Virus record (IMG/VR): IMGVR_UViG_3300030107_004847
Span: 1-28,193 of that record
Length of the DNA stretch: 28,193 nt
Strand: one strand, 5' to 3'
Origin: a virus
This document shows positions 5,053 to 28,081 of this stretch, one piece after another (position 1 is the first letter of the stretch; the number at the start of each line of letters is the position of its first letter). Made by a program: the position numbers and the translations under genes. The notes beneath the pieces are model-generated. The model saw only the letters and a list, made by a program, of their open reading frames with translations. It did not search any database and was not told the DNA's origin.

Positions 5053-6459
5053 TCAGAATGGGCACTCGACATCTTGGGTCGGTGCAATTGGATTGAACTG
5101 AAGCAGTTCAGAACGGCTGGCGATCTCGCCGGCGTGAGTGTACCAAGTACGCTTGTCGCCGTCCCACCGGCAGCCGAGGGACTTCGCTATATCCTTCTGA
5201 TCATACGACACGTTGAGGTCGATACGAGCATCGGGGTCCATTGAAGACCAGTCGGTCGGGGCGGCTTCGGTGGCGACAACATCGTCGCCATCTACTTTGG
5301 TGTAGAGATTCAGGAATCCCTCTTTCGTATCGTCATCGAAGCGGGCGATAGCCATGTTGATCGCGGTCATCTTATCGTCGAAGATCGCGTAGGCTTTCAC
5401 GATGTCTACCAGACGGCGAGTCGAGATGATCTCATCGACAGCACCCTCGGCGAACGACTTGCGGATGATCTCCGCCCACTTGACGAGGTGATCGCCGAAG
5501 TCGGCGTCGTCGATGCTGACGGCAGCCATAGCTTTGGTCAGAATCTTCTTCTCGGTCGAGCGGCTAGCGTACTCCTGCTCAAGCGTAACAGGGAAACGGT
5601 CGAGGAAGGCCTCGTTCATGACGTTGGTGCCGATGAAGCGACCGTCGTCGGAGCCCTTACCCTTGGTATTCGCAGTAGCGAGAACCGTGAAGCCGGCGGC
5701 GGGGGTCACCCAGCGGCCGATCTTCTTGAGGTAAACGCCCTTACCTTCGAGTACAGACTGAAGGCACATGATGTTGGTCGAACCGAGGTCGATCTCATCC
5801 AGAAGCAGGACGCCACCGGCTGGGTCTTCCATCGCCTTGACGACAGGACCGTCGCACCAAACCGTGTTGCCGTCGATAAGACGGAAACCGCCGAGCAGGT
5901 CATCCTCATCGGTCTGCTTGGTGATGTTGACGCGGTAGCAAGGGCGCTTGAGCTTGGCACAAACCTGCTCAATCATCGTGGTCTTGCCGTTGCCGGAAAG
6001 GCCGGTAACGAACGTGGGATAAAAGATCTTCGCCTTGAGAATCTTCTCGATAGATGAGAAGTGACCCCAAGGAACGTAGGTCGATTCGCGGTTGGGAATC
6101 AGGTGGGCGCGGTCGCCACCAGTCATTCCCATCACAGCGGCGCCAGCCAGGTTCATGGTAGGCGCAGCGGCGACGGTCGCAGGAGCCGGAGCAGGAGCAG
6201 CAACTGGCTCAGCAGCGGCAGCAGCCGGGATCGTATGGACGGCTTCGCGGATCTCAGGAACGTGGTACACGCCGCGAGTATCGGTGCGGCGACGGCTATC
6301 CTGAACGATCCACGCTGGCGGTACAGTGTAGATGTCGGTCGCGTCGATGACATCCAGAAGGTACTGGCGATCCACGTTCGGGTTCTGGGTCTGAGCAGCA
6401 AGGGCATCCACGAACTGGCGCTGGCGCTTGGAAAGGTCGTTGTATCGGAAGGTGGTCAA
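5053..6459 (-). CDS. CobS/MoxR-like AAA+ ATPase with C-terminal DUF5710-like domain
   Basis: With the TTG at 6459 as start (GGAG eight bases upstream) the protein has 468 residues. Residues 1-75 form a charged domain, 78-105 an Ala/Pro linker, and 130-310 the AAA+ core. The core shows Walker A GLSGNGKTT (153-161), Walker B LLLDEID (D221, E222), a sensor ATANTKG (261-267) and an arginine-finger-like FLDRF (R288). Residues 412-440 (RIDLNVSYDQKDIAKSLGCR and WDGDKRTWY) match the short DUF5710 domain. Family members act as MoxR-type chaperone ATPases that remodel or load metal into a VWA partner, as CobS does with CobT. That partner is encoded divergently at 6753. Longer starts translate through a palindrome-rich spacer and are unlikely. 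Confidence 0.87.
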   Translation of the reverse strand: MTTFRYNDLSKRQRQFVDALAAQTQNPNVDRQYLLDVIDATDIYTVPPAWIVQDSRRRTDTRGVYHVPEIREAVHTIPAAAAAEPVAAPAPAPATVAAAPTMNLAGAAVMGMTGGDRAHLIPNRESTYVPWGHFSSIEKILKAKIFYPTFVTGLSGNGKTTMIEQVCAKLKRPCYRVNITKQTDEDDLLGGFRLIDGNTVWCDGPVVKAMEDPAGGVLLLDEIDLGSTNIMCLQSVLEGKGVYLKKIGRWVTPAAGFTVLATANTKGKGSDDGRFIGTNVMNEAFLDRFPVTLEQEYASRSTEKKILTKAMAAVSIDDADFGDHLVKWAEIIRKSFAEGAVDEIISTRRLVDIVKAYAIFDDKMTAINMAIARFDDDTKEGFLNLYTKVDGDDVVATEAAPTDWSSMDPDARIDLNVSYDQKDIAKSLGCRWDGDKRTWYTHAGEIASRSELLQFNPIAPTQDVECPF

Positions 6460-6752
6460 TGTTCGTACTCCGTTAGGGTATCGTCGAAATAGTCCGGGCC
6501 CATCCCGGATATGCTGTAGCCTACCATGCAGAGGGGCAGCCTCAAGGAAAATCCCCGAAATCGGGGGTAAATAAATATATTCTTTTTTCCAACAAAATCC
6601 CCATTTTGGGGTCGTTTGGTATGCGTGTTGATAGCGACCGCGTAACCCCTTGTGGCACAAGGACTTATGGCAGGGGTAAAAATGGGGGTTTTTTATGCTC
6701 AAAATGAGGGATTTTCCTTGCAATTCGAGCAGGGTATGGGACCATACGGGCG
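6460..6752. promoter_or_regulatory. Divergent control region between the CobS-like and CobT-like genes
   Basis: This 293-base spacer holds no credible gene but several inverted repeats: CCCCGA-AA-TCGGGG at 6553-6566, CCCCA-TTT-TGGGG at 6599-6611, CCTTGT-GGC-ACAAGG at 6648-6662 and GTATGG-GA-CCATAC at 6734-6747. The first two are each preceded by AAAAT. AT-rich stretches (6567-6590) may hold promoters for both directions, but I cannot place -35 and -10 boxes with confidence. Shared repeats between two divergent genes suggest joint control of the pair by one repressor or activator. Confidence 0.5.
6734..6747 (+). promoter_or_regulatory. Perfect 6-bp inverted repeat just before the CobT-like start
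   Basis: GTATGG-GA-CCATAC ends five bases before the ATG at 6753, where the ribosome site should be. No good purine-rich site is visible there (only GGGCG next to the ATG). The repeat could be an operator or an RNA element limiting translation. Confidence 0.4.
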
Positions 6753-8909
6753 ATGAATAACACGACCCGAAATAGCGTACAAACCCCTAACATTTCCCGA
6801 ACATCCAAGGATGTCCTTGCCCGCCTGCTGGCGAGCGAGAATCTGATCGTGGAGCATTCCTCCGACGCGGCTACGGCCTCGTTCGATACGAATGCCCGCA
6901 TCCTGACCCTGCCCGTGTGGCAGGATATGTCGAACAGCCTGTATGACATGCTGGTCGGACATGAAGTCGCCCACGCCCTCTGGACCCCGTCCGACGAATG
7001 GCGTGACTCGATGTACCTCAAGGGCGAAGCCCACGCGCCGATCTTCAAGCAGATCGTCAACATCGTCGAAGATGCCCGCATCGAGCGTATGATCAAGGCC
7101 AAGTTTCCTGGTCTTCGTCGTGACTTCTTCGCCGCGTACTCCGATCTGGCTGACCGTGACTTCTTCGGTCTGAACGATACGACGATGGACGACCTGACCA
7201 TCGTTGACCGTCTCAATCTGGAATTCAAGATCGGCTCCCATACGCCGATCCCATTCGCCGCTGATGAGCGAGTCTGGATCGACCGCGTGGCTACGACCAA
7301 GACATTCGCCGATGTCGTTGCTGTATCTTCTGACCTGTTCGACCTGATCGCCCCTGAACTGGATTCCCCAGAGGATTCCCCAGAGGATTCCGCTGATCAG
7401 GATCAGGAACAGGACGAAGACGGCGATGGCGTCGGAATGCCTGCCCCATCGAACGAATCCGGTGGCGACGATTCCGACGAAGATACCGAAGCCGATGGCG
7501 AGTCCGGCGAAAGCGATGCACCAGAAGGTGATCAGCAGGACGACAACAATACGACCAGTATGCATGACGATACCGACGATGGTGAGTCTGCGGACAGCCG
7601 CGAAATCCCTAGCCAGGCAGGTTCAAATGGCGGTGTCGGTTCCACGATGCAATCCTTCGAAGAGGCTGTAAACGAGCTTCGAGACATGGATGCCAAGGAA
7701 CAGGTTTACGCCGACGTTCCAGCGGCGAACATGGATCACATCGTTATCGATAGCCGCAAGGTTCATACGACTCTGTTCGATCATGTCAAGCAGAGCGACC
7801 GATGCCGCAAGTCGTACAACGAAGCCGTACGCGGTCTCGCTCAATTCGAGAACGAATCCAAGAAGACCGTGAACATGATGGCTCAGCAGTTCATGCGGCG
7901 CCAAGCTGCTGACGAACAGCAGCGAACCAGCATCAGCCAGACTGGTGTTCTCGATACGAACAAGATGATCAACTACAAGTGGTCCGAAGACCTGTTCCTT
8001 CGCCACGAAGAGATCGCCGACGGCAAGAATCACGGCTTCGTCCTGTTTCTTGACTGGTCAGCATCCATGTCCAACATCATCAACGAGACCATCCAGCAGC
8101 TTCTTCAATTCGCTATGTTCTGCCGTAAGGTGAACGTACCATTCGAAGTTTATGCATTCACCAGCCAGTCATGGAATGATGACGACGATCTTCAGTATCA
8201 CGACGATGCCCAATCATGCTGGCAGCAGACTGATACCAGCGCCCGCGTTCACGGTTTCCATCTCATGCACCTGCTCTCCAGCACGATGAACAATCGCCAG
8301 ATGAAGACAGCCATGACGAATCTGTTCTACGTCGGCACCGACCGTGCCTACGGTGGTGTTCCTCGTCAGTGGCACATGGGTTCTACGCCCCTGAATGAAA
8401 CCATCGTAGCCGCGATGGACATCATTCCCGCTTTCCGTGCAGCGAACGATCTTCAGATCGTCAATACCATCTTCCTGACCGATGGTGATGCGAGCAGCAA
8501 CATTGCCCCCGGCCATTACCGTGGTAAGGGCTATCTTCGCAAGGGTACGAAGTCCTACTCCTGCGACGATGGTGGCACCGCAGCCGTTCTTGAGATGTTC
8601 AAGGATACTACCGGCTCCAAAGCGATCGGCATCTACCTGAACGACAGCAAGCGGCTTCCCTACTTCTGCGGACTCGACGATGATCTGAAGCAGGAATACA
8701 AGAAGCAGGGTTGGATCGCCACTTCCCGCGACGGTTACACGGAATACTTCGTCATGAAGGCGCAAACCAAAGTCGAGAACGATGCCCTTCAGGGACTCGA
8801 TAAGGATGTTTCCTACACTCGACTGAAGAACGCATTCATGAAAGCATCATCCGGACGAGTCGCAAGTCGAGTAGTCCTCAACCGAGTAGTCGATCTGATG
8901 GCTGTCTGA
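6753..8909 (+). CDS. CobT-like protein with HExxH and VWA (MIDAS) domains, 718 residues
   Basis: The N-terminal part has HEVAHALW (H70, E71, H74), then NIVEDARIER about 35 residues on, a layout like M48-type zinc metallopeptidases where the later ED gives the third ligand. Residues about 200-290 are a very acidic linker with a small SPED repeat. The C-terminal part carries a von Willebrand A domain with MIDAS residues DWSAS (D434, S436, S438) and a later FLTDGDAS. CobT-like VWA proteins work with MoxR/CobS AAA+ ATPases, and such a gene lies divergently at 5053-6459. In T4-like cyanophages similar pairs are annotated as cobaltochelatase subunits, although their real role is unproven. Codon use is GC-rich. 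A strong terminator follows. Confidence 0.85.
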   Translation: MNNTTRNSVQTPNISRTSKDVLARLLASENLIVEHSSDAATASFDTNARILTLPVWQDMSNSLYDMLVGHEVAHALWTPSDEWRDSMYLKGEAHAPIFKQIVNIVEDARIERMIKAKFPGLRRDFFAAYSDLADRDFFGLNDTTMDDLTIVDRLNLEFKIGSHTPIPFAADERVWIDRVATTKTFADVVAVSSDLFDLIAPELDSPEDSPEDSADQDQEQDEDGDGVGMPAPSNESGGDDSDEDTEADGESGESDAPEGDQQDDNNTTSMHDDTDDGESADSREIPSQAGSNGGVGSTMQSFEEAVNELRDMDAKEQVYADVPAANMDHIVIDSRKVHTTLFDHVKQSDRCRKSYNEAVRGLAQFENESKKTVNMMAQQFMRRQAADEQQRTSISQTGVLDTNKMINYKWSEDLFLRHEEIADGKNHGFVLFLDWSASMSNIINETIQQLLQFAMFCRKVNVPFEVYAFTSQSWNDDDDLQYHDDAQSCWQQTDTSARVHGFHLMHLLSSTMNNRQMKTAMTNLFYVGTDRAYGGVPRQWHMGSTPLNETIVAAMDIIPAFRAANDLQIVNTIFLTDGDASSNIAPGHYRGKGYLRKGTKSYSCDDGGTAAVLEMFKDTTGSKAIGIYLNDSKRLPYFCGLDDDLKQEYKKQGWIATSRDGYTEYFVMKAQTKVENDALQGLDKDVSYTRLKNAFMKASSGRVASRVVLNRVVDLMAV

Positions 8910-9829: not shown

Positions 9830-10294
9830 ATGAAAACATTCCGTCAATACATCACCGAGAAGCCAGCGAAGTTATCCGCGACTCTCCCTTATAAGGGATC
9901 GAAGTGGGAGGACTTTCGTGGCTTAGAGAATCCTACTGAGCGTGAATTGATTACCTTTCTAAAAAAATCGAAATCATTCGAGTTGCGATTCGTCGTGAGC
10001 AAAGAAGGTCTCATGTGGGTATGGGATAGCAATCACGGGCTACATGAAGCGGTCATATATGCAATGACTGGCGAGAGATACTCCGTGCATAATCTGTATG
10101 CGAAAGGGCTGATTGGCTTTCTTGATCCCGAGCATGATGGCATAGGGACGATGAAGAAAGGCAATCTCAAAGTCTGGGTCATGAATGAACGTGCGGTGGG
10201 TCCAAACTTCGCACTCAAAAATAAATTGTTGAAAGCACTTGCAAAGAGAATAAATAGTGCAGGAAAAGATAAAGTGTACTGGAGCGACGTATGA
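9830..10294 (+). CDS. Candidate internal head protein with capsid-targeting start, 154 residues
   Basis: MKTFRQYITE at residues 1-10 closely resembles the T4 capsid-targeting sequence (MKTYQEFIAE), which directs internal proteins into the prohead and is cut after an (L/I)xE site. Here I8-T9-E10 followed by K11 would be the cut. The mature part is basic with aromatic residues (MWVWDSNHGLHEAVIYAMTG) and has no recognised catalytic motif. It is the first of a run of genes (9830-12093) joined by four-base or one-base overlaps that share this start. I infer packaging in the capsid and delivery to the host. Confidence 0.75.
   Translation: MKTFRQYITEKPAKLSATLPYKGSKWEDFRGLENPTERELITFLKKSKSFELRFVVSKEGLMWVWDSNHGLHEAVIYAMTGERYSVHNLYAKGLIGFLDPEHDGIGTMKKGNLKVWVMNERAVGPNFALKNKLLKALAKRINSAGKDKVYWSDV
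10249..10256 (+). promoter_or_regulatory. Candidate late promoter (AATAAATA)
   Basis: AATAAATA lies 35 bases before the ATG at 10291, within the end of the upstream gene, leaving room for a transcript start near 10262 and the GGAG site before the ATG. It differs from TATAAATA only at the first base, a variation accepted in late promoters of T4 relatives. Confidence 0.35.
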
Positions 10295-10905
10295 AATCAT
10301 TTCTACAATATTCAACCGATGACATCATGCAGGATAATGACTCTTGGGTCATATCCGAAGCTGGCTTGTCTCGCGTTCTCAAACGAACACAAGATGCAGA
10401 TGATCTCGTAATCATTACAGCATATCGTAGCAACCTATCCAAGAAACAGAACATCAGCCGTAATCGTGCATTGCGAGGCGAACTGAATAAGAGAAAGATG
10501 GGTGCGTATCAACTCGTCGGGCATTGGCAGGAATGTCAGGATCCCAACATTGAATACTCCAAGTGTCCGAAGAATCAATTAGTCGATGCGATTGAGCGTT
10601 CCTTTCTCGTAATCAAGCCGGATGATATGTCCTCAGAAGACTTCTTGAAATTCCTTGTAGCCATGGCGAAGAAGTACGATCAGGATGGTATTGTATACAA
10701 GCATGAGAATGAGTACACCATCGTCAACAAGCGTGGTGCAACCGAATTCAAGATCGGCACAAACGTCGGTGTTGGAAAACTAGGACAAGCGTATAGCCAG
10801 TACATAAAGAAATTGGATGTTCCATTCATCTTCGAAGGCATCGATGTTCCCGTGACGAACATCGGCAAGAGAATATTCCAGCAGAATGGGATGTTGTGGG
10901 CATGA
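10291..10905 (+). CDS. Candidate packaged protein, DUF3293-like, 204 residues
   Basis: Residues 1-7 (MKSFLQY) match the capsid-targeting start, but the IxE cut site is displaced to residues 21-23 (VISE then AGLSRV), giving a longer propeptide. The mature part has VIITAYRSNLSKKQNISRNR, GAYQLVGHWQE and ERSFLVIKP followed by KKYDQDGIVY. This order resembles DUF3293, a domain of unknown function. Its start overlaps the upstream stop as ATGA, and its stop overlaps the next gene the same way. The first 21 bases are identical to those of the gene at 11881. Confidence 0.75.
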   Translation: MKSFLQYSTDDIMQDNDSWVISEAGLSRVLKRTQDADDLVIITAYRSNLSKKQNISRNRALRGELNKRKMGAYQLVGHWQECQDPNIEYSKCPKNQLVDAIERSFLVIKPDDMSSEDFLKFLVAMAKKYDQDGIVYKHENEYTIVNKRGATEFKIGTNVGVGKLGQAYSQYIKKLDVPFIFEGIDVPVTNIGKRIFQQNGMLWA

Positions 10906-11108
10906 AATCATTTCTAGAATACATCTCGGAGAGGCTGGTAGTGCATTACAAGAAGGGCAGAAAGGTCAAGGCGATCAAGGGAACCAAGAAGGGTCAGACT
11001 GGAATCGTTGTCTCAATGTGTCCCGGTGATGCGTGTGTGAACATTCGATTGGATGTTGGTGATCGAGTCATACAACAGAATCCTAAGTTCTGGCAGGTGA
11101 TCAAATGA
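10902..11108 (+). CDS. Candidate packaged KOW-like protein, 68 residues
   Basis: MKSFLEYISE followed by RLVV is a clean capsid-targeting start with an ISE cut after residue 10. The mature part KKGRKVKAIKGTKKGQTGIV is a KOW-type pattern, found in proteins that bind RNA or the transcription machinery, followed by VGDRVIQQNPKFWQVIK. The ATG at 10902 is chosen over a GTG six bases upstream because it makes the ATGA overlap with the previous gene. A delivered KOW protein could act on host transcription or translation; this is inference. Confidence 0.72.
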   Translation: MKSFLEYISERLVVHYKKGRKVKAIKGTKKGQTGIVVSMCPGDACVNIRLDVGDRVIQQNPKFWQVIK

Positions 11109-11881
11109 AACGAATATCAGAAGTGTACAAGAAATCAGGTCTCGGTAAATGGTTTCATAGCCAGTCTGCTGGTGGTAAGCCGGGATGGGATCGTTACAAT
11201 ACCAAGGGTGAACGAGTCGGTGAATGTGGCGACAGAAAACCCGGAGAAGGTAAACCAAAGTGCCTCTCTCGTCAGAAGGCTGCAAAGATGAGCAAGAAAG
11301 AAATCGGAAATGCAGTCCGACGTAAGCGTGCAAAGGATCCAGACACAGATCGACCTGGAACTGGCAACAAACCAATCAACGTATCAAATCGAATCGGGGA
11401 GAGTGCAATGAAATCATTCAAGCAGTTTATATCTGAGAAGAACAAACCAACCAATCCATCGCTGTGGTCCTCATGCATAGCACAAGCGAAGAAGAAGTTT
11501 GATGTCTATCCATCAGCATACGCGAATGCATGGGCATCTAAATGCTACAAAGGCAAAGGTGGAGGTTGGAGAGTAGAAGATTCAGTCGAACATGATTGTG
11601 GCTGTGTGGATGAGAAGACAGCAGCATGGACACGCAAAGCTGGAAAGAATAAAGAGGGTGGCTTGAATGCGAAGGGTAGAGCATCATACGAACGAGAGAA
11701 TCCCGGTAGCGATTTGAAAGCCCCTGTCTCCGCGAAGACTGCGAGGAAGAATCCTGATGGTAAGGCTGCTGGCAGAAGAAAATCATTCTGTGCAAGAATG
11801 GGTGGCATGCCTGGTCCAATGAAAGGCAAAGACGGCAAACCAACACGCAAGGCATTAGCACTTCGTAAATGGGATTGTTGA
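11105..11881 (+). CDS. Three-module fusion with an internal capsid-targeting start, 258 residues
   Basis: Module 1 (residues 1-95; SGLGKWFHSQSAGGKPGWDR, CLSRQKAAKMS) resembles DUF5872-type basic proteins of marine phages. Residues 102-111 are MKSFKQFISE, a complete capsid-targeting start in the middle of the frame, with its own GGGGAGAG ribosome site at the DNA level. Module 2 (to about 155) contains KKKFDVYPSAYANAWASKCY, a short motif shared by many marine phage proteins. DSVEHDCGCVDE (159-170) separates it from module 3 (KAGKNKEGGLNAKGRASYER, SFCARMGGMPGPMKG, TRKALALRKWDC), which matches DUF6321. The whole is strongly basic. I read it as a fused or nested pair of packaged proteins. Confidence 0.8.
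   Translation: MKRISEVYKKSGLGKWFHSQSAGGKPGWDRYNTKGERVGECGDRKPGEGKPKCLSRQKAAKMSKKEIGNAVRRKRAKDPDTDRPGTGNKPINVSNRIGESAMKSFKQFISEKNKPTNPSLWSSCIAQAKKKFDVYPSAYANAWASKCYKGKGGGWRVEDSVEHDCGCVDEKTAAWTRKAGKNKEGGLNAKGRASYERENPGSDLKAPVSAKTARKNPDGKAAGRRKSFCARMGGMPGPMKGKDGKPTRKALALRKWDC
11396..11410 (+). promoter_or_regulatory. Internal ribosome site and ATG inside the 258-residue gene
   Basis: GGGGAGAG (11396-11403) is followed after four bases by ATG (11408), which opens MKSFKQFISE in the same frame. Spacing and strength equal those of true starts here, so a shorter 157-residue product from 11408-11881 is likely. Confidence 0.6.
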
Positions 11882-12093
11882 TGAAATCATTTCTACAATA
11901 TATTTCAGAAGACTGGCTTTATGCCATACCATCATACCCTGTACAAGTAGATACAGATAAGGATGATGGTGAATGGATCACGGGAGATCCACCAATGCCG
12001 ATTGAGATAGGCAAGAATGCGAAAGCTGATATAGCAAGGGCAAATAAGCAAGTAGATAGGGATCGAAAGACAACACAAAAAAACCCCGGATGA
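11881..12093 (+). CDS. Candidate packaged protein, 70 residues
   Basis: MKSFLQYISE followed by DWLYAIPSYP is another capsid-targeting start with an ISE cut after residue 10. The mature peptide of about 60 residues is charged with no recognised domain. The ATG overlaps the upstream stop as TGATG. The stop codon lies inside the downstream terminator hairpin, so the gene ends the transcript. Its first 21 bases repeat exactly those at 10291. Confidence 0.7.
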   Translation: MKSFLQYISEDWLYAIPSYPVQVDTDKDDGEWITGDPPMPIEIGKNAKADIARANKQVDRDRKTTQKNPG

Positions 12094-17046: not shown

Positions 17047-18246
17047 ATGAAAAGATTTAAGCAATTCATCATGGAAGGTAAGAATCTACATCTTACCCAT
17101 GCGGCCGACTTTTCCTTTGAGGGGAAGGAGAGAGCGTCACAAGCGATTCAATTCATCGAATCTCTCACAGACATGCTCCAAGGTTCCTCAAAAACAAAAC
17201 TGAATGTTACACGCAAATGGGATGGTGCCCCTGCTATATTTGCAGGGACAAATCCAGAAAATGGCAAGTTCTTTGTTGGAACTAAGAGCGTTTTCAATAA
17301 GACTCCAAAGATAAATTACACAAACGCAGATATTAGTCGCAATCATGGCGGAGGATTAGCGGCTAAACTAAAAGTCGCACTCAAACATTTACCTTCTCTT
17401 GGAATCAAAGGAATTCTACAGGGAGATTTGCTGTTTGGACCAGGAGATATAACAAAAGATAATATTGACGGAGAGTCATACCTCACATTCACTCCCAATA
17501 CGATTACATATGCTGTCCAGTCTGGTTCCAATTTAGCCAAAAAAATAACCAAGGCTAAAATTGGTATTGTTTTCCATACAAAATATACAGGAAAACAAAT
17601 GACAAACATGAAAGCATCATTCAACGTGACTGATTCCGATTTCGGATCCTCCTCGTCAGTTTGGGCAGAGGATGCCAGATATAAAGATCTGACAGGTAAT
17701 GCTACCTTTACATCTAAAGAATATTCTAAGATGCTGTCCCTAATAGACAATGCAAAAGCAGCGTTGAAGGGTGCATCTAAAGGATCGAACTTTTTGGCTA
17801 GCAGTCCTGAAATACAAATGCACATAAACACATACACAAATGCAAAGGTTAGGGCAGGGAAATATTCATTCTCTGTTAGAGAATTTATCAGTTTTGTTAA
17901 TGATAAGTTATCTAAACAGGCAAATGCCCTCAAGACAGAAAAGGGCAGAGAAAGAAAACTAAAACAAGTCAACTCTATAGTTTCTGCTATAAGTAGCAGA
18001 ACTAGGGACATAGATGCAGTGTTCAAATTAAATACTGCCTTACAAAAATGCGTAATGATGCTGGTAAATAAATTACAAAAGGTTCAGTCAATGAGGACAT
18101 TCCTCAAGACATCAAATGGCTTTAAAGTTACGAGTGACGAAGGTTTTGTTGCCAGTGATAAAGTAGGGACTGCGATAAAACTCGTAAATAGACTAGAATT
18201 TTCAAGAGCTAATTTTGCTCTTGCAAAGAATTGGGTGAAAGGATAA
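17047..18246 (+). CDS. DUF6267-like candidate packaged protein, 399 residues
   Basis: MKRFKQFIME at 1-10 with an IME cut before GKNLHLTHAAD is a capsid-targeting start. The mature protein matches the DUF6267 type known from T4-like marine phages: THAADFSFEG, TRKWDGAPAIFAG (K57-x-D59-G60), KFFVGTKSVFNKTPKINYT, ILQGDLLFGPGD and TFTPNTITYAV. The KxDG and the later QGDLLF resemble motifs I and III of ATP-dependent ligases and other covalent nucleotidyltransferases, where K57 would carry AMP. That is inference, and motifs IV to VI are not clear to me. The C-terminal 180 residues are helical and lysine-rich. If packaged, it could act on ejected DNA. Confidence 0.8.
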   Translation: MKRFKQFIMEGKNLHLTHAADFSFEGKERASQAIQFIESLTDMLQGSSKTKLNVTRKWDGAPAIFAGTNPENGKFFVGTKSVFNKTPKINYTNADISRNHGGGLAAKLKVALKHLPSLGIKGILQGDLLFGPGDITKDNIDGESYLTFTPNTITYAVQSGSNLAKKITKAKIGIVFHTKYTGKQMTNMKASFNVTDSDFGSSSSVWAEDARYKDLTGNATFTSKEYSKMLSLIDNAKAALKGASKGSNFLASSPEIQMHINTYTNAKVRAGKYSFSVREFISFVNDKLSKQANALKTEKGRERKLKQVNSIVSAISSRTRDIDAVFKLNTALQKCVMMLVNKLQKVQSMRTFLKTSNGFKVTSDEGFVASDKVGTAIKLVNRLEFSRANFALAKNWVKG

Positions 18247-18904: not shown

Positions 18905-21900
18905 ATGAGTGCAGCAGTCTTTACATTCGGAAGGTTTAATCCCCCAACGTCAGGTCATATGGCTCTTGTAAATAAAATAAAGGACGTTGCCAGTAAAAAG
19001 AAAGCAACCGGCTACGTCTTCACAGGTCAGAGTGTTGATGCTGAGAAGAATCCACTCGACTACCGAACAAAAACCTCCCTCATGAAAAAAGCATTCTCGG
19101 GTGTAAAGGTTGTTAGTAACAAATCAATCAAACAGATATTTGACGCTATACAATTTTTAGATGGAAAGCACGATGAAATAATTTTGGTTGTTGGTTCGGA
19201 TAGAGTCAGAGAATTCAAAAGACTCATTCCAAGATATTTAAAAGATTATAACTTTAAGAAGTTTGATGTTGTTTCAGCAGGTGCAAGAGATCCGGATGCT
19301 GGAGGAGTAAAGGGAATGTCTGCATCTAAGATGAGGGCAGCGGCCGGACGAGGCGACTATAACGCATTCCGTCTCGGGTGTCCTGAAACTTTGTCGAAAA
19401 AAGATTGCATGACGATGTTCAAGTCTGTACAGAAAGGAATGGGCATGAAAGAAAATGTTGATGTTGATTGGTTCTCTATGGATGAGTTTAATGAATTTCT
19501 TGAAGAAAGAACACTGTCTCTTCAAGCAAGAAAGAAGATGGCAAGGGTGGCAAAGAAAACAGCTAAAAGAAGAGCAAGAACAAGAAAAAGAAAAGAGAAG
19601 ATTCGAAAATCCGGAGAGCAGTTAAAACTAAAAGCAAACAAGCAAGCTAAAATGACTTTGCGGAAAAAAATTCTAGGTGATCAGAAATGGTCAAAGCTGT
19701 CAGTGTCACAGAGGACTAGAATTGATCAACTTCTTCAAAAGAAAGAAAAAGCAATAAAGAGAATCTCTAAAAAACTACTACCGAAAGTTAAAAAACAAGA
19801 GAGAGAAAGACTACAGAAGGTGAGAGGTAAGACTCCCGGTCAACCCAATAACCTGTCTGATTCTTATAAATATATTAACCCTACTATAGAGGAAAATAAA
19901 ATGGCTGACGAAAAACCCTTGATGAGATGGATGGCTTCATTTCGTGCAGAGTTGAAGAAACTCGGTTCTTCATATGGTAAAGTAAAACCAGAAGACGCAC
20001 TGAAACTATATTACAAAAAGATAGATCCCAAGAGGGCTGCAAAGCAACTCAAGGAGTCTGTTGAATTGACAGAGAAGCCTTCAAATGAAATGAGAGAAAC
20101 AGGAAGACAAATGCTTCGTTCGATGCCAAGAGACATGAAGTCAAAGGTAGAAAAGGGTCAGTATAAAGTCGTTGCATCTGCTCCATCATGGCTCGGAGGC
20201 AATTCAGAGTTCCAAGTTCTCAAGTGGAGCAATAAGCCAAACGTAGATCCATACATCATGGTAATCGTCAGCAACCCGAAACATAAGCCAATGCAAGTGT
20301 TCGCATACTACGGAACACACCCATCTCGTAATGCAATTCAGTTTGCAAAGGGCAATGGTCTTCTTGAGTCCGTTGAACTGGATGAAGGCTCATTGGGATA
20401 CAAGAGAGCTTTGCGTGCCAGAAGGAAGAATCCTAAGAAAGAAAAGAAGATGGATTTCAGACGTTACGAGAAAGAAAAAGCTCGCGGGAATATAAAAGAT
20501 ATAAAAGATTCTGTTGAACTGGAAGAGGACAACACCGCCGCAGTTGCAAAGTTAGTCAAGAAAGCAGTGAAGAAGTATGTCACTGGTACTCCCAGAGTCC
20601 GATCCAAAGGCGGCAAGGCTCGTTTCATCATGTTAAGAGCAGACAAGATTGATAACAAATTGCGTAAGATGGTGCTTGATGTTGAACATCCAAACGCAAA
20701 TGTCAAGAAGATGGATGACATTCACTATGCTAACATCAGTGATAGAATCATCAGTGCGGGTGCCGATGTGTGGATAGATGCACTTGGATTGAAAGTGGAT
20801 GAAGCAGCAATCGATCTTGCAAGAGTTCCCCTTCGCACTCCAAAGGTAAAGACAGGCATCAAGAAGTCAACCAACATTCGTTTGGTTCTTCCAAATGCAC
20901 CCGAAGTCAAAGCAAAGATGGATCGCGTTCTAAAGAAAGATCCTAAATTCAGAAGACAGATGGCAAACCTAGTCGTAGATCGAGAGACGAGAGGAAAGGA
21001 CCTTGTCCTATACTTCAAGAGTACCAGAGGTCGAGAGAAGTTCCATCAGTTGTTGAACATGACAGAGGAATTCAACACAGAGGCAGTCGGAGCCGTCGTT
21101 AAAACGGCAGCGAAGGTTGCCGCTAAAGTTGCCGCTAAAGCAGCAGCGGACAAGATGAAAAGAAAACGTGATGAAATAGCAAAGAAGAGAGAAAAACTCT
21201 CCAAAGAGCGAGAGGATCTTGATGAAGTAGTTAATCTTTCACGTTACCGCGATAAAGCGAGAGCAGAGATTCAAAAAAGAGACAATAAATTTATTGTGAA
21301 GCATCGGGACGGCCAGTACGTTTCTAAAATGGACGGCAAGAAAATAAAAGGTGTTCTCAATGATCCTGACAAAGCTATGAGATTCAACAAGAGAGATGCA
21401 GACCGCGTTGCTAAGATTGAAAGAGGCAGTAAGGTAATTAAACTTGATGAAAGAAAGATGACTGATTCGGAAATTAAAAAAAAAGAAGAGATAGTAAAAG
21501 CTCTTAAGAGAAACAAGGATGAATTTGATAGACGTTACGGCGATGCGTCGAAGAACGTGATGTACGCGACTGCGACTAAGAACGCGATGAAGGATCACGT
21601 TGAGGTTGATGAAGATACCTTCCAGAAGAAAGCAGCACAGGATGCCGCTGCAAAGTTTGATGTTGAAATTGACAAAATCAAACAGAAAATCTCTGACAAC
21701 CAAGCACGAATGGATGCTGCGAAGAGTGCCGTGCAAGGTCAATCAAATTTAGATGCCCTGAGAAAACAAAAAGAGGCTGCAACAAAGAAGAAAGAAGAAG
21801 CAAAGAAAAAAATAGAGGCTATAAAGGCAAGAATGGCAGCAAGACGGGAAACCATGAGAGATCACGTTGAACTGGATGAAGCATGGACAGCAGACAGTGT

Positions 21901-23158
21901 GAAGAAGAATGCTGAAATTGGTTCTAAAAAAGGTTATGGTATCACCATCAAAAAAACTGGCGGAATTACCAAAACCCCATACAAGCACATGCTTATGACA
22001 ATGCGGCGTGACAAGAGTGTCAGAGTAACTTTCGATCACGGTAAAAATGAGTTTGAAGGAACTCCCGAATCAGTTGCCATCTATCTAAATAAACTTCTTG
22101 GTATCAAAGAATCCGTTGAACTGGATGAACGAAGAAGACAAGATGTCTATGCAATCGTAGACAAGAATGGTAAAGTTGTTTCATCGAAACTTACAAAGAA
22201 AAACGCACACAAAGAAATCGCAAAATACCGATATGCTTCTGATGCGACAATCGTTCTTGACCCCGATGCAAAAGATGGTGATATCCTAAAGGCATATGCG
22301 AAAAAGAAAAATAAGAAATCCGACCCTGAATTAGATTTAAGAAGACTACGCAGTGGTGCGTATGTTAGTAAGAGGGAATCCGTTGAACTGGATGAAAATA
22401 AGCGTGTGAAAGACTTAGTTGCTAAATACAACAAAGCAGGAAGAGTCGCATTTCACTATCCTAGAAAGAAAAAGGTATCCCTTGATGGTGGAAGACTAAT
22501 GAGTGAAAAGGATGCCATTGAAAAAATGAAAAGTGTTCTTGGTGAAGCAATCGGTGATGGCAAAAAGAAAGACATGAGACAGCGTAAACTTGATGTCGCA
22601 CTTGCGAAAATTGATAAGACATTCAAGGAACCTTACAAGCCCATGACACATAGAAAGGGCATCGCTGCAAAGGGTCATGAAAAAACTAGATTAAATCCTC
22701 AAGGTAATCTGTATAAGGATATAGGGAGAAACAAGAGGATAGATGATATAAAACTAATCTCTAGAATGTTGAAGAGAGGCATGAAGCCTGCTGAGATAAG
22801 GAAAAAAGGTTATAAGCAAAACCAGATTAGATCAGCACAGAGATATCTGAAAGATGATGTCAACGAGAATCATGCGTCTCTCGCAGATCGTAGAGCATAC
22901 CTTAAAAAAACTGTTGATGATCGTAAAGCAAGAGTCAAGGCTCGAAGAGAGATGATCAAACAGGGCCGTGCAAAAGTAGGTGATGGTAAGGATGTAGATC
23001 ATAAGAATGGAAATCCACAGGATAATAGTTCTACAAATCTTAGAATGTCCAGTGTAAATAATAATAGAAGCAGAAACAACAACGAGGAAAATGGAGCAGG
23101 CGACGAAGGTACAAATAAGTTGCTCAAGAAATACAAGAAAGAAACACCGGGCGCATGA
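18905..23158 (+). CDS. Candidate internal-head polyprotein: nucleotidyltransferase, basic modules, HNH-like end (1417 residues)
   Basis: Residues 1-180 are a cytidylyltransferase-type domain: GRFNPPTSGH (9-18) is the HxGH-like motif and SASKMR (139-144) the ISSTxxR-like motif. MDEFNEFLEE (192-201) is an internal capsid-targeting-like sequence with a LEE cut. Linkers of the form (S/H)VEL(D/T/E)E end at E390, E494, E541, E992, E1075 and E1164, and a VEVDE variant ends at E903. Other LxE candidates end at E774, E849 and E1214, and a weaker VDE at E633. They separate modules of about 45-230 residues, mostly lysine-rich, including a coiled coil (904-992) and a KNVMYATATKNAMKD motif (850-903) known from marine phages. 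The end has DVDHKNGNPQDNS (D1363, H1366) and NRSRN, an HNH-type pattern. ATAAGGG precedes the ATG. I infer cutting by the prohead protease into about ten products. Confidence 0.82.
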   Translation: MSAAVFTFGRFNPPTSGHMALVNKIKDVASKKKATGYVFTGQSVDAEKNPLDYRTKTSLMKKAFSGVKVVSNKSIKQIFDAIQFLDGKHDEIILVVGSDRVREFKRLIPRYLKDYNFKKFDVVSAGARDPDAGGVKGMSASKMRAAAGRGDYNAFRLGCPETLSKKDCMTMFKSVQKGMGMKENVDVDWFSMDEFNEFLEERTLSLQARKKMARVAKKTAKRRARTRKRKEKIRKSGEQLKLKANKQAKMTLRKKILGDQKWSKLSVSQRTRIDQLLQKKEKAIKRISKKLLPKVKKQERERLQKVRGKTPGQPNNLSDSYKYINPTIEENKMADEKPLMRWMASFRAELKKLGSSYGKVKPEDALKLYYKKIDPKRAAKQLKESVELTEKPSNEMRETGRQMLRSMPRDMKSKVEKGQYKVVASAPSWLGGNSEFQVLKWSNKPNVDPYIMVIVSNPKHKPMQVFAYYGTHPSRNAIQFAKGNGLLESVELDEGSLGYKRALRARRKNPKKEKKMDFRRYEKEKARGNIKDIKDSVELEEDNTAAVAKLVKKAVKKYVTGTPRVRSKGGKARFIMLRADKIDNKLRKMVLDVEHPNANVKKMDDIHYANISDRIISAGADVWIDALGLKVDEAAIDLARVPLRTPKVKTGIKKSTNIRLVLPNAPEVKAKMDRVLKKDPKFRRQMANLVVDRETRGKDLVLYFKSTRGREKFHQLLNMTEEFNTEAVGAVVKTAAKVAAKVAAKAAADKMKRKRDEIAKKREKLSKEREDLDEVVNLSRYRDKARAEIQKRDNKFIVKHRDGQYVSKMDGKKIKGVLNDPDKAMRFNKRDADRVAKIERGSKVIKLDERKMTDSEIKKKEEIVKALKRNKDEFDRRYGDASKNVMYATATKNAMKDHVEVDEDTFQKKAAQDAAAKFDVEIDKIKQKISDNQARMDAAKSAVQGQSNLDALRKQKEAATKKKEEAKKKIEAIKARMAARRETMRDHVELDEAWTADSVKKNAEIGSKKGYGITIKKTGGITKTPYKHMLMTMRRDKSVRVTFDHGKNEFEGTPESVAIYLNKLLGIKESVELDERRRQDVYAIVDKNGKVVSSKLTKKNAHKEIAKYRYASDATIVLDPDAKDGDILKAYAKKKNKKSDPELDLRRLRSGAYVSKRESVELDENKRVKDLVAKYNKAGRVAFHYPRKKKVSLDGGRLMSEKDAIEKMKSVLGEAIGDGKKKDMRQRKLDVALAKIDKTFKEPYKPMTHRKGIAAKGHEKTRLNPQGNLYKDIGRNKRIDDIKLISRMLKRGMKPAEIRKKGYKQNQIRSAQRYLKDDVNENHASLADRRAYLKKTVDDRKARVKARREMIKQGRAKVGDGKDVDHKNGNPQDNSSTNLRMSSVNNNRSRNNNEENGAGDEGTNKLLKKYKKETPGA
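19865..19903 (+). promoter_or_regulatory. Late promoter, ribosome site and in-frame ATG inside the polyprotein gene
   Basis: A perfect TATAAATA (19865-19872) is followed by TATAGAGGA (19884-19892) and ATG (19901), in the same frame as the large gene (codon 333, MADEKPLMRWMASF). The other two frames are closed by several stops here, as expected for former intergenic DNA. A shorter 1085-residue product starting at 19901 is likely. Confidence 0.6.
20369..22396 (+). repeat. Dispersed linker repeats TCCGTTGAACTGGATGAA
   Basis: The 18-base sequence is identical at 20369-20386, 22112-22129 and 22379-22396. A 15-base core GTTGAACTGGATGAA also occurs at 21866-21880. Degenerate forms lie at 20057-20074, 20510-20527 and 21596-21613. 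Each encodes the (S/H)VE(L/V)(D/T/E)E linker between protein modules. Confidence 0.9.
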
Positions 23159-23844: not shown

Positions 23845-24336
23845 ATGAAAACCTTTAAAGAATTGAAAAGTAAATTAGATGGAATCATGGAATACAATAC
23901 CTTATCCCAGACCGCTGCATGGCAGGTGGTGAACGGTACTGGTGCCCATGTAGTAGAAGATCCTGCTAGACTTGCAGAAGTAAACATGTTCATTGCAAGA
24001 AATCTCAATAGACGTTTCTCTGATCCTGTAAGTGCGATCAACATGTTAAGATCTAAACTGAATTTCATAGGTATTGACTTCGAAGCTAATCCTCAAGAGT
24101 TAGCAACAGAGGGAACTGTTAGCTTTCCTGTTACTCGACATGGTGGTTCATTTGGAACTACACCGGATCACGATTTGAGAAATGGTTTTTATCGTGACAA
24201 TGGAATTCGAGGTTTAGAAATGGCAATAACAGGGGACATTGTTCTAGAAGCAACTGGTTATAGAATTTCTCTGAAGATTATCCCAACAGAAGGAACTGGA
24301 ATTCAACCAGAAAATCCTGATCCCGCTGAATCTTGA
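23845..24336 (+). CDS. Candidate packaged protein, 163 residues
   Basis: MKTFKELKSKLDGIME followed by YNTL resembles a lengthened capsid-targeting start with an IME cut after residue 16. The mature part contains VSFPVTRHGGSFGTTPDHDL, NGIRGLEMAITGDIVLEATG and YRISLKIIPTE, a beta-rich sequence that suggests a structural protein. No enzymatic motif is visible. It has its own late promoter and a strong ribosome site, so high late expression is expected. The packaging idea rests on the N-terminus alone. Confidence 0.68.
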   Translation: MKTFKELKSKLDGIMEYNTLSQTAAWQVVNGTGAHVVEDPARLAEVNMFIARNLNRRFSDPVSAINMLRSKLNFIGIDFEANPQELATEGTVSFPVTRHGGSFGTTPDHDLRNGFYRDNGIRGLEMAITGDIVLEATGYRISLKIIPTEGTGIQPENPDPAES

Positions 24337-25505: not shown

Positions 25506-25850
25506 ATGAAAAAGTGGAATGAAATAAAAGAATCTATGGAAGAAGATTTTCCTCTCAATGTTGCTTCGAGTGGAGCTATAAAGGGTTTGGGAAAACCGCC
25601 TGAGGATGGTCCCCCTGTCAAAAAGAAAAAGAGAAAGAAATTTGCTGGCTCAGAAGTATTTGAAGTCACAGAAGATGAGTATATGAAATGTATGCATGGC
25701 AGGAATAAACATGAGAGATGGTCTCGAAAATTCGATATGGGTAAATTGGAAAATGTAGAGTTAAGAAAATTTGCCCAAAGACATCCCGGAAAGTCAATCG
25801 TTCTTCAAAATGAAAGAACAGGAGAGATGATTTATTTAAGAAGATTCTGA
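25506..25850 (+). CDS. Conserved phage hypothetical protein, 114 residues
   Basis: The sequence starts MKKWNEIKESMEED, which loosely resembles the capsid-targeting pattern but lacks a clean IxE. It continues NVASSGAIKGLGKPPEDGPP, a KKKKRKK tract, and FAGSEVFEVTEDEYMKCMHG, then HERWSRKFDM and NERTGEMIYLRR. The GLG..P linker plus VFEV..E domain is of a type I associate with marine phage proteins of unknown function, often present as modules in larger proteins. No strong ribosome site (AAGA) is seen. It is coupled by position to neighbours. Confidence 0.66.
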   Translation: MKKWNEIKESMEEDFPLNVASSGAIKGLGKPPEDGPPVKKKKRKKFAGSEVFEVTEDEYMKCMHGRNKHERWSRKFDMGKLENVELRKFAQRHPGKSIVLQNERTGEMIYLRRF

Positions 25851-27310: not shown

Positions 27311-27318
27311 TATTTATT
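27311..27318 (-). promoter_or_regulatory. Candidate late promoter (AATAAATA), leftward
   Basis: On the leftward strand AATAAATA overlaps the stop of the protease gene and lies 16 bases before the resolvase ATG, with AAGGAAAC between. The leader would be very short, so the call is tentative. Confidence 0.33.
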
Positions 27319-28081
27319 CTTGTGTTATGGTATTTATCCATGAATAATAGAATGGAATGCTAGAAAATCCATTTTCATAATATACGCCGTTCTTTTGGGC
27401 TAGGTATGATGTTATTCCTATTAATTTGCCATTCTTAGTTACTAACGCTCCACCCGAGTCGCCAAACCAAACTGTGTCTGTGATTGGAAGACAAATTTCA
27501 AATTGAGGTCTTCCAATTAATCTACCAAAATACCAGAAAACATCATCCTTACTATATCTTTTCATTCCTCCACTATATCCTATCACGGTAAGTGGCGATC
27601 CTTTATAAATTCTATCCTGTTTAGGATCAAACAACTCTACTGGTATTTCATCACATTCCTCTTCAAGAATTAACATTGCAATGTCATAGTGTTCTGACCA
27701 ACATGGATTGAAAAGAAAGTAATCTGGTTTTGGTACAGGATAGTATATCACTTCTGCAATACAATGTCTATCTCCATCTTGTGTAATGAATACTAAATCC
27801 TCTGGATCATGATCATCAGATACATGTGCGGCTGTTAAGACAACAAGAGGATCAATTACTACTCCACTTCCGATGAGACGCTCATCTTCTGAGAAATTTA
27901 TAGAACCAACAAAAGGATATGGATCGGGATCATCATAAATGACACGTTGAAAATTCTGTGGAATTTTCTGAATGAAACTTATAATTGTTTCTTTTGGTTC
28001 CGGTGGTGTTTCGGAAACAGATGGTGTTCTGCAACCGCTTAAGCATAACAAAAGTGTTAAGATTGCGGAATACAATTTCAT
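27314..28081 (-). CDS. Trypsin-like serine protease lipoprotein, 255 residues
   Basis: MKLYSAILTLLLCLSGC is a lipoprotein signal with lipobox LSGC (C17). The chymotrypsin-fold triad is complete: TAAH (H86), HYDIAML (D133) and FGDSGGAL (S209). The segment IGSGVVIDPLVVLTAAHVSD and the later GKLIGITSYL are typical of S1 proteases. The mature enzyme would be lipid-anchored and act outside the cytoplasm on an unknown substrate, perhaps host surface proteins, a competing phage receptor, or a lysis partner. Cysteines at 107, 127, 143 and 197 could form disulfides. No good ribosome site is seen; TATATAATATAG lies directly before the ATG. The gene lies downstream of a terminator, so it must have its own promoter. 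Confidence 0.85.
   Translation of the reverse strand: MKLYSAILTLLLCLSGCRTPSVSETPPEPKETIISFIQKIPQNFQRVIYDDPDPYPFVGSINFSEDERLIGSGVVIDPLVVLTAAHVSDDHDPEDLVFITQDGDRHCIAEVIYYPVPKPDYFLFNPCWSEHYDIAMLILEEECDEIPVELFDPKQDRIYKGSPLTVIGYSGGMKRYSKDDVFWYFGRLIGRPQFEICLPITDTVWFGDSGGALVTKNGKLIGITSYLAQKNGVYYENGFSSIPFYYSWINTITQE

Follow-up and report, generated by a model that had tools for sequence, protein, structure and literature searches.

A common N-terminal sequence at overlapping genes

The stretch of DNA analyzed in this study (hereafter, the window) is a 28,193-base virus fragment, positions 1 to 28,193 of the IMG/VR record IMGVR_UViG_3300030107_004847, in which a run of overlapping genes and a few genes elsewhere encode unrelated proteins starting with nearly the same ten residues. 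Its gene matches are to Kyanoviridae and similar phages (myoviruses of Synechococcus, Prochlorococcus, Methylophilales, and Pelagibacter). The nearest relative found, G001, has a DUF6267 protein 59% identical to that of the window and a large part of the gene content in common.

It was found that the pattern M-K-x-F-x-x-[FY]-I-x-E (hereafter, the tag) occurs exactly at positions 9830 (MKTFRQYITE), 10902 (MKSFLEYISE), 11408 (MKSFKQFISE), 11881 (MKSFLQYISE), and 17047 (MKRFKQFIME); a scan of the window gave these five forward matches and none for the reversed pattern. Judged by aromatic residues at positions 4 and 7 and [IL]-x-E at positions 8 to 10, five window sites are exact and two are extended. 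The run, on the forward strand, starts at 9830..10294 with a gene for a 154-residue protein of no known family (MKTFRQYITE/KPAK, the slash marking the predicted cut), whose mature part has an isoelectric point (pI) of 9.6. The gene at 10291..10905, encoding an S-adenosylmethionine (SAM) lyase of family PF23780 with a putative catalytic Glu at residue 102, keeps the first, targeting half of the tag (MKSFLQY), while the second, cleavage half comes later (VISE/AGLSR, with VISE at residues 20 to 23). It is followed by a gene at 10902..11108 for a small protein of pI 10.4 (MKSFLEYISE/RLVV), by an ORF (open reading frame) at 11105..11881, and by a gene at 11881..12093 for a 70-residue protein of pI 4.8 and no known family (MKSFLQYISE/DWLY). 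Neighboring tagged genes overlap by four bases (ATGA) or one base (TGATG), and thus they are probably translationally coupled. Downstream on the same strand, the gene at 17047..18246 encodes the DUF6267 protein (MKRFKQFIME/GKNLH), and the gene at 23845..24336 encodes a protein starting with MKTFKELKSKLDGIME/YNTL, in which MKTFKEL is followed by IME/Y at residues 14 to 16. The orthologues of the latter in G001 (MKSFKDIKQIME/D) and in G006 (MKTFKQHIKE/G) keep both halves of the tag. The mature proteins of the window are mostly basic (pI 9.3-10.4), those of 11881 and 23845 being acidic. The forward-strand ORF at 25506-25850 starts with MKKWNEIKESMEE/DFP, which may be a degenerate tag; it was left out of the counts.

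A preliminary description of this DNA had reported the common start for the whole run as well as for 17047 and 23845. The exact form was indeed present at 9830, 10902, 11881, and 17047, while 10291 and 23845 have the extended form; MKSFKQFISE lies at an internal ATG instead of opening an ORF.

Resemblance to the T4 capsid targeting sequence

The best explanation for the common start is a capsid targeting sequence (CTS) of the T4 type, a propeptide cut by the prohead protease gp21, and it is highly probable that several unrelated proteins of the window bear it. In T4, targeting depends mainly on residues 4 and 7 and processing on residues 8 and 10, with the cut after L/I-x-E (PMC9026906). Since the DUF6267 proteins were gathered by homology of their bodies and not by their starts, their N-termini provide an independent test. 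An [ILVMF]-x-E site was found in 54 of the 58 unique N-termini, and entropy was low at F(-6), F/Y(-3), I/L(-2), and E(0), the last being the anchor of the comparison; the E is mostly followed by A, S, or G. These conserved residues correspond to T4 positions 4, 7, 8, and 10. The DUF6267 proteins of P-HM2 and P-SSM2 have no leader and begin essentially at the mature residue, and thus the leader is detachable and lies outside the fold. In AlphaFold models, residues 1-16 of the DUF6267 protein and 1-25 of the SAM lyase have predicted local distance difference test (pLDDT) scores below 50 and are disordered.

The T4 major capsid protein gp23 has the maturation site SFLTE/A, and the capsid proteins of relatives have NFLSE/A, GLLTE/A, AFLSE/A, QYLKE/A, and GFLTE/T at the corresponding place, giving the consensus [FLYI]-[LI]-x-E. 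Since this obligatory capsid substrate carries such a site, the preference of the protease resembles the end of the tag. Of the DUF6267 contigs, all five longer than 60 kb encode a member of the gp21 family (PF03420), as do seven of seven T4-like phage genomes and, among ten contigs of 54-169 kb picked by the tag alone, eight; the family was not found in T7 or P-SSP7. Together with the virion proteomes described below, the residue constraints, the capsid sites, and gp21 in relatives support the earlier proposal of a T4-type signal on unrelated proteins.

T4 IPII and IPIII share with the window proteins the N-terminal pattern (MKTYQEFIAE fits the regular expression), the critical residues 4, 7, 8, and 10, a small basic cargo (predicted for the window), and a gp21-family protease, found here in relatives. 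Unlike them, the window has more diverse predicted cargo including enzymes, coupled gene runs, and some tags or sites inside fused ORFs. The preliminary description had also counted T4 Alt among proteins with MKTYQEFIAE-like starts, which does not hold, as Alt is cut at ITE-6 (PMC5694885). Alt, a packaged ADP-ribosyltransferase cut by gp21, differs from the window proteins in its six-residue leader and C-terminal cut; its ITE-6 site may be compared with the start MKRISE/ of ORF 11105. The scanned window proteins included no Alt homologue. The giant phages phiKZ and SPN3US similarly have many head proteins, some of them injected, with propeptides cut after x-E by a related protease. Their propeptides are mostly long, however (about 100 residues or more in SPN3US), in contrast to a ten-residue CTS, and the phiKZ motif is S/A-x-E.

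Virion proteomes of related phages

The virion proteome of S-CREM2 includes non-structural proteins (Table 3 of PMC10665884). Translation of the detected ORFs revealed the starts MKDFDSFLEE for ORF6 (SAM hydrolase), MKDLHSFLTE for ORF13, (V)KRFDAFLTE for ORF14 (kinase), and MKNFSSFLTE for ORF154 (cytidylyltransferase), as well as a later RFASFMAE in ORF12 and a weak MNFSEFNE in ORF15. When structural genes were excluded, four of six genes tagged according to a looser regular expression were detected, compared with 23 of 181 untagged genes (p = 0.004); with a strict motif, all four tagged genes were detected (Fisher p = 0.0004). In S-SCSM1, examined up to position 178,000, the virion NMNAT starts with MKSFLQFLKE/A (PMC9602691). 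A cytidylyltransferase cluster was reported in S-SM1 virions by Sullivan et al. 2010 (PMC3037559).

The virion enzymes of the cyanophages S-CREM2 and S-SCSM1 thus have the same tag, and two families are common to them and the window: PF23780, to which both S-CREM2 ORF6 and the 10291 protein belong, and NMNAT/cytidylyltransferase. They differ from the present case in having been published without a sorting signal, their status as cargo or contamination being in doubt; the word "targeting" is absent from the S-CREM2 proteome paper (PMC10665884). In the open-access literature, "capsid targeting sequence" and "cyanophage" were found together only in a T4 review, where the one cyanophage passage seen belongs to the reference list; subscription journals lay outside this scope. 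DUF6267 was also compared with S-SCSM1 ORF90, a similarly placed virion protein, and orthology of the two is unsupported (E = 0.17). Since the start is T4-like and tagged enzymes occur in the virion data of two relatives, the tag probably marks proteins that are injected with the phage DNA.

Several points weigh against the T4-type interpretation. The virion evidence comes from S-CREM2 and S-SCSM1, the phage of the window being known from sequence alone, and packaging and cutting of the window proteins may be assumed only by analogy with these relatives. The strict S-CREM2 motif was applied after the looser expression, and its test covers four genes only. The S-CREM2 authors were unable to separate cargo from contamination (PMC10665884), and no N-terminal peptide proving cleavage is at hand in the published proteomes. 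The proteins marked as virion components in S-SCSM1 do not include the product of one strict-tag gene (at 44215, 106 residues). Four of the 58 unique DUF6267 N-termini lack the site, some DUF6267 proteins being untagged. Of the ten contigs picked by the tag, two have no gp21, though each may be a fragment, and no gp21 gene lies within the 28-kb window, itself a fragment. The regular expression gives false positives, such as an apparent UvsW helicase in C48C1, and the window cytidylyltransferase, in the ORF at 18905 described below, has no CTS at its own N-terminus.

Distribution of the tag

The start expression matches 4 of the 40 window genes, compared with a mean of 0.0 in shuffled sequences, and six gene starts in C48C1, compared with 0.2. 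Summed over T4-like genomes, matching gene starts are in large excess over shuffles, and there are none in T7, P-SSP7, and HTVC008M. A broader pattern has three sites in T4 (ipII, ipIII, and gene 61.1) and none in T7 or P-SSP7, its reversed control being nearly empty. T4 gene 61.1 (NC_000866 18966-19130; locus L177, 367-531, reverse strand) has 54 codons and an unknown function. Since it starts with MKTFKEFIKE, its product may be an unrecognized internal head protein of T4.

A search of IMG/VR with the tag pattern gave at least 120 stretches, and there were none for a scrambled pattern of equal composition. In the 80 loci kept for analysis among the stretches listed, all 88 matches open a frame, a few of them clipped by the end of the stretch. 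Bacterial and archaeal contigs (257 billion bases) gave 17 matches. When the first 12 residues were removed, 126 tagged proteins fell into 63 clusters. Runs of four tagged genes exist in other phages (L228, 2357-3910; L275, 6505-9422), the starts in L228 overlapping the preceding stops (ATGA). A tagged family with proteins of about 200 residues, among the two largest of the pattern scan, occurs at 1056-1691 of L253 and at 18 other loci; the one member scanned had no Pfam or PHROG match.

Tagged proteins and their predicted activities

The protein encoded at 10291 is a SAM lyase as judged from profile, modeled fold, and catalytic residue. It scores 39.6 bits against PF23780 (cut-off, 28), and this family replaces the DUF3293-like assignment given to it at first, which was below the cut-off and was rejected. 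Svi3-3 and the T3 SAMase are the best Foldseek matches (T3 SAM lyase, E = 9.6e-4, probability 1.00; Svi3-3, probability 0.98; mean pLDDT of the model, 70). E102 is invariant in 13 sequences and aligns with Glu69 of Svi3-3, although that alignment is weak (E = 0.36), and Q131-D132 corresponds to Q104-E105. Unlike Svi3-3 and the T3 SAMase, the window enzyme bears a probable packaging tag. No relevant match came from searching solved structures with the 10291 sequence alone.

The DUF6267 protein resembles the ligase superfamily, with a putative nucleotidyl transfer activity. K57-W58-D59-G60 (in KWDGAP) and E365-G366-x-V368 (in EGFVA) are invariant in 30 sequences and were assigned by eye to motifs I (KxDG) and IV (EGxV). 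The top 24 VIA-align rows are RNA/DNA ligases, with Z at most 7.6; Foldseek alone gave nothing significant, and a DUF6267 profile against PDB sequences gave nothing. The KOW-like character proposed for the 10902 protein can be seen as a resemblance to KOW, L24, and MotB-like proteins, all below threshold. Tagged proteins outside the window match adenylate kinase, SAM lyase, and a DPBB-type lytic transglycosylase, with weak matches to kinase, polynucleotide-kinase, and RNA 2'-phosphotransferase families; a weak match of the last kind is that of a protein at 3736-4149 of L219 to phrog_5470, a fold for ADP-ribose chemistry reminiscent of the Alt activity. A PADLOC scan of seven tag-carrying proteins gave no match, and an NCBIfam scan of eight proteins gave nothing above the cut-off.

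Fused ORFs

Two ORFs of the forward strand look like candidate polyproteins for a gp21-type protease, judging from their predicted junctions. The ORF at 11105..11881 consists of a module starting with MKRISE/VYKK, an internal CTS module, and a DUF6321 module. The internal tag, MKSFKQFISE (11408..11437), begins at codon 102, and GGGGAGAGTGCA just before its ATG is a strong ribosome-binding site. The three modules are separate genes in G001, where the DUF6321 gene starts with MKSFKSFLENCGCGEMDE/; the same junction in the window is VEHDCGCVDE/.

The ORF at 18905..23158 (1417 residues) has an NMNAT/cytidylyltransferase domain, the sequence FNEFLEE/ followed by a basic module, and an HNH-like C-terminus. 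It has seven [VIL]E[LIV]xE sites, compared with 0.2 in shuffles, all in the form of VE[LV]xE linkers: VELTE (20060..20074), VELDE (20372..20386), VELEE (20513..20527), VEVDE (21599..21613), and three further VELDE (21866..21880, 22115..22129, and 22382..22396). Since the other proteins tested, in relatives, have zero or one such site each, a form with seven linkers is known thus far from the window only; the S-SCSM1 virion protein ORF92 has one VELDE site. In Melnitz and C48C1, the basic module that follows FNEFLEE/ is encoded by a tagged gene of its own (E = 3e-12 and 4e-5 when three sequences were searched), and modules of the ORF recur in other combinations in other contigs.

Other features of the window include a divergent pair kept in relatives, a CobS/MoxR-like AAA ATPase and a CobT-like/VWA protein (phrog_249 and phrog_459; 5053-6723, reverse, and 6753-8909, forward). 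A reverse-strand ORF at 27314-28081 has a lipoprotein-like signal (LLLCLSGC) and a trypsin-like GDSGG motif, unusual for a phage, and another at 1994-2410 contains VVHEMVH, a metallopeptidase motif of the HExxH type. The window gave no match in Rfam and tRNA scans.

Alternative explanations

The tagged proteins might be packaged as parts of the core or scaffold and degraded at maturation, like T4 gp67 and gp68, and not be injected effectors. The small basic modules and the polyproteins with many LxE sites do resemble the T4 core proteins that gp21 fragments (PMC9026906). However, the enzyme folds retain conserved catalytic residues (E102 of the SAM lyase and KWDG of DUF6267), and enzymes of like kind were detected in virions, which makes this explanation unlikely. 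Less likely still, the tag may direct proteins to another place, such as the membrane or a replication site, or mark them for degradation, their detection in virions being due to co-purification. According to the authors of both the S-CREM2 and S-SCSM1 studies, enzymes expressed at high levels may not have been removed from the virions; yet the tagged S-CREM2 genes were preferentially detected, the neighboring untagged non-structural genes mostly were not, and the cleavage half of the tag equals the maturation site of the capsid protein.

Recent recombinational spread of a 5′ segment containing the start codon and ribosome-binding site and selected for translation is the least probable: the genes at 10291, 10902, and 11881 share 22-25 of their first 30 bases and are joined by ATGA/TGATG overlaps, but no relationship is seen in the 30 bases preceding them (5-12 of 30 identical), the tag codons differ synonymously while the residues are kept, residues 4, 7, 8, and 10 are constrained in distant DUF6267 proteins, and the junction E is invariant in 13 SAM lyase sequences despite varying leader length. 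The similarity of the tags is mainly at the protein level. Segment duplication as the source of the common starts was rejected, as the upstream regions are unrelated.

Possible mechanism and significance

For a T4-type CTS, the following course is proposed. During assembly of the prohead core, the N-terminal M-K-x-F-x-x-[FY] would dock each protein on the scaffold. After closure of the shell, a gp21-type prohead protease would cut behind the glutamate in [FY]-[IL]-x-E, and the tag would exit the head. The mature, mostly basic protein would remain in the head and be ejected with the DNA, and the fused ORFs might be cut into modules. One signal would thereby load unrelated cargoes, such as the SAM lyase, the ligase-like DUF6267 protein, the small KOW-like protein, DUF6321, and others. 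At entry, they may remove SAM against methylation-dependent defense and seal nicks or RNA.

While the mechanism of the T4 system is known, the spread in marine phages and the enzyme cargo appear new relative to it, and the fused forms are probably new. It seems quite possible, if somewhat short of probable, that marine T4-like phages inject a changing arsenal of enzymes marked by an address code readable in the sequence, in the form of coupled cassettes and polyproteins cut by the head protease. Equally tentatively, this arsenal could comprise SAM lyase, RNA-ligase-like DUF6267, NMNAT, kinases, and phosphatase- or phosphotransferase-like proteins, separated inside the capsid.

Cyanophage proteomics repeatedly finds metabolic and regulatory enzymes in virions and has left undecided their status as cargo or contaminants; a CTS recognizable in the sequence makes the question testable. 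With this interpretation, the injected proteins of uncultured ocean phages become predictable. A further suggestion is that counter-defense enzymes such as the SAM lyase may arrive with the DNA and not be made after infection.

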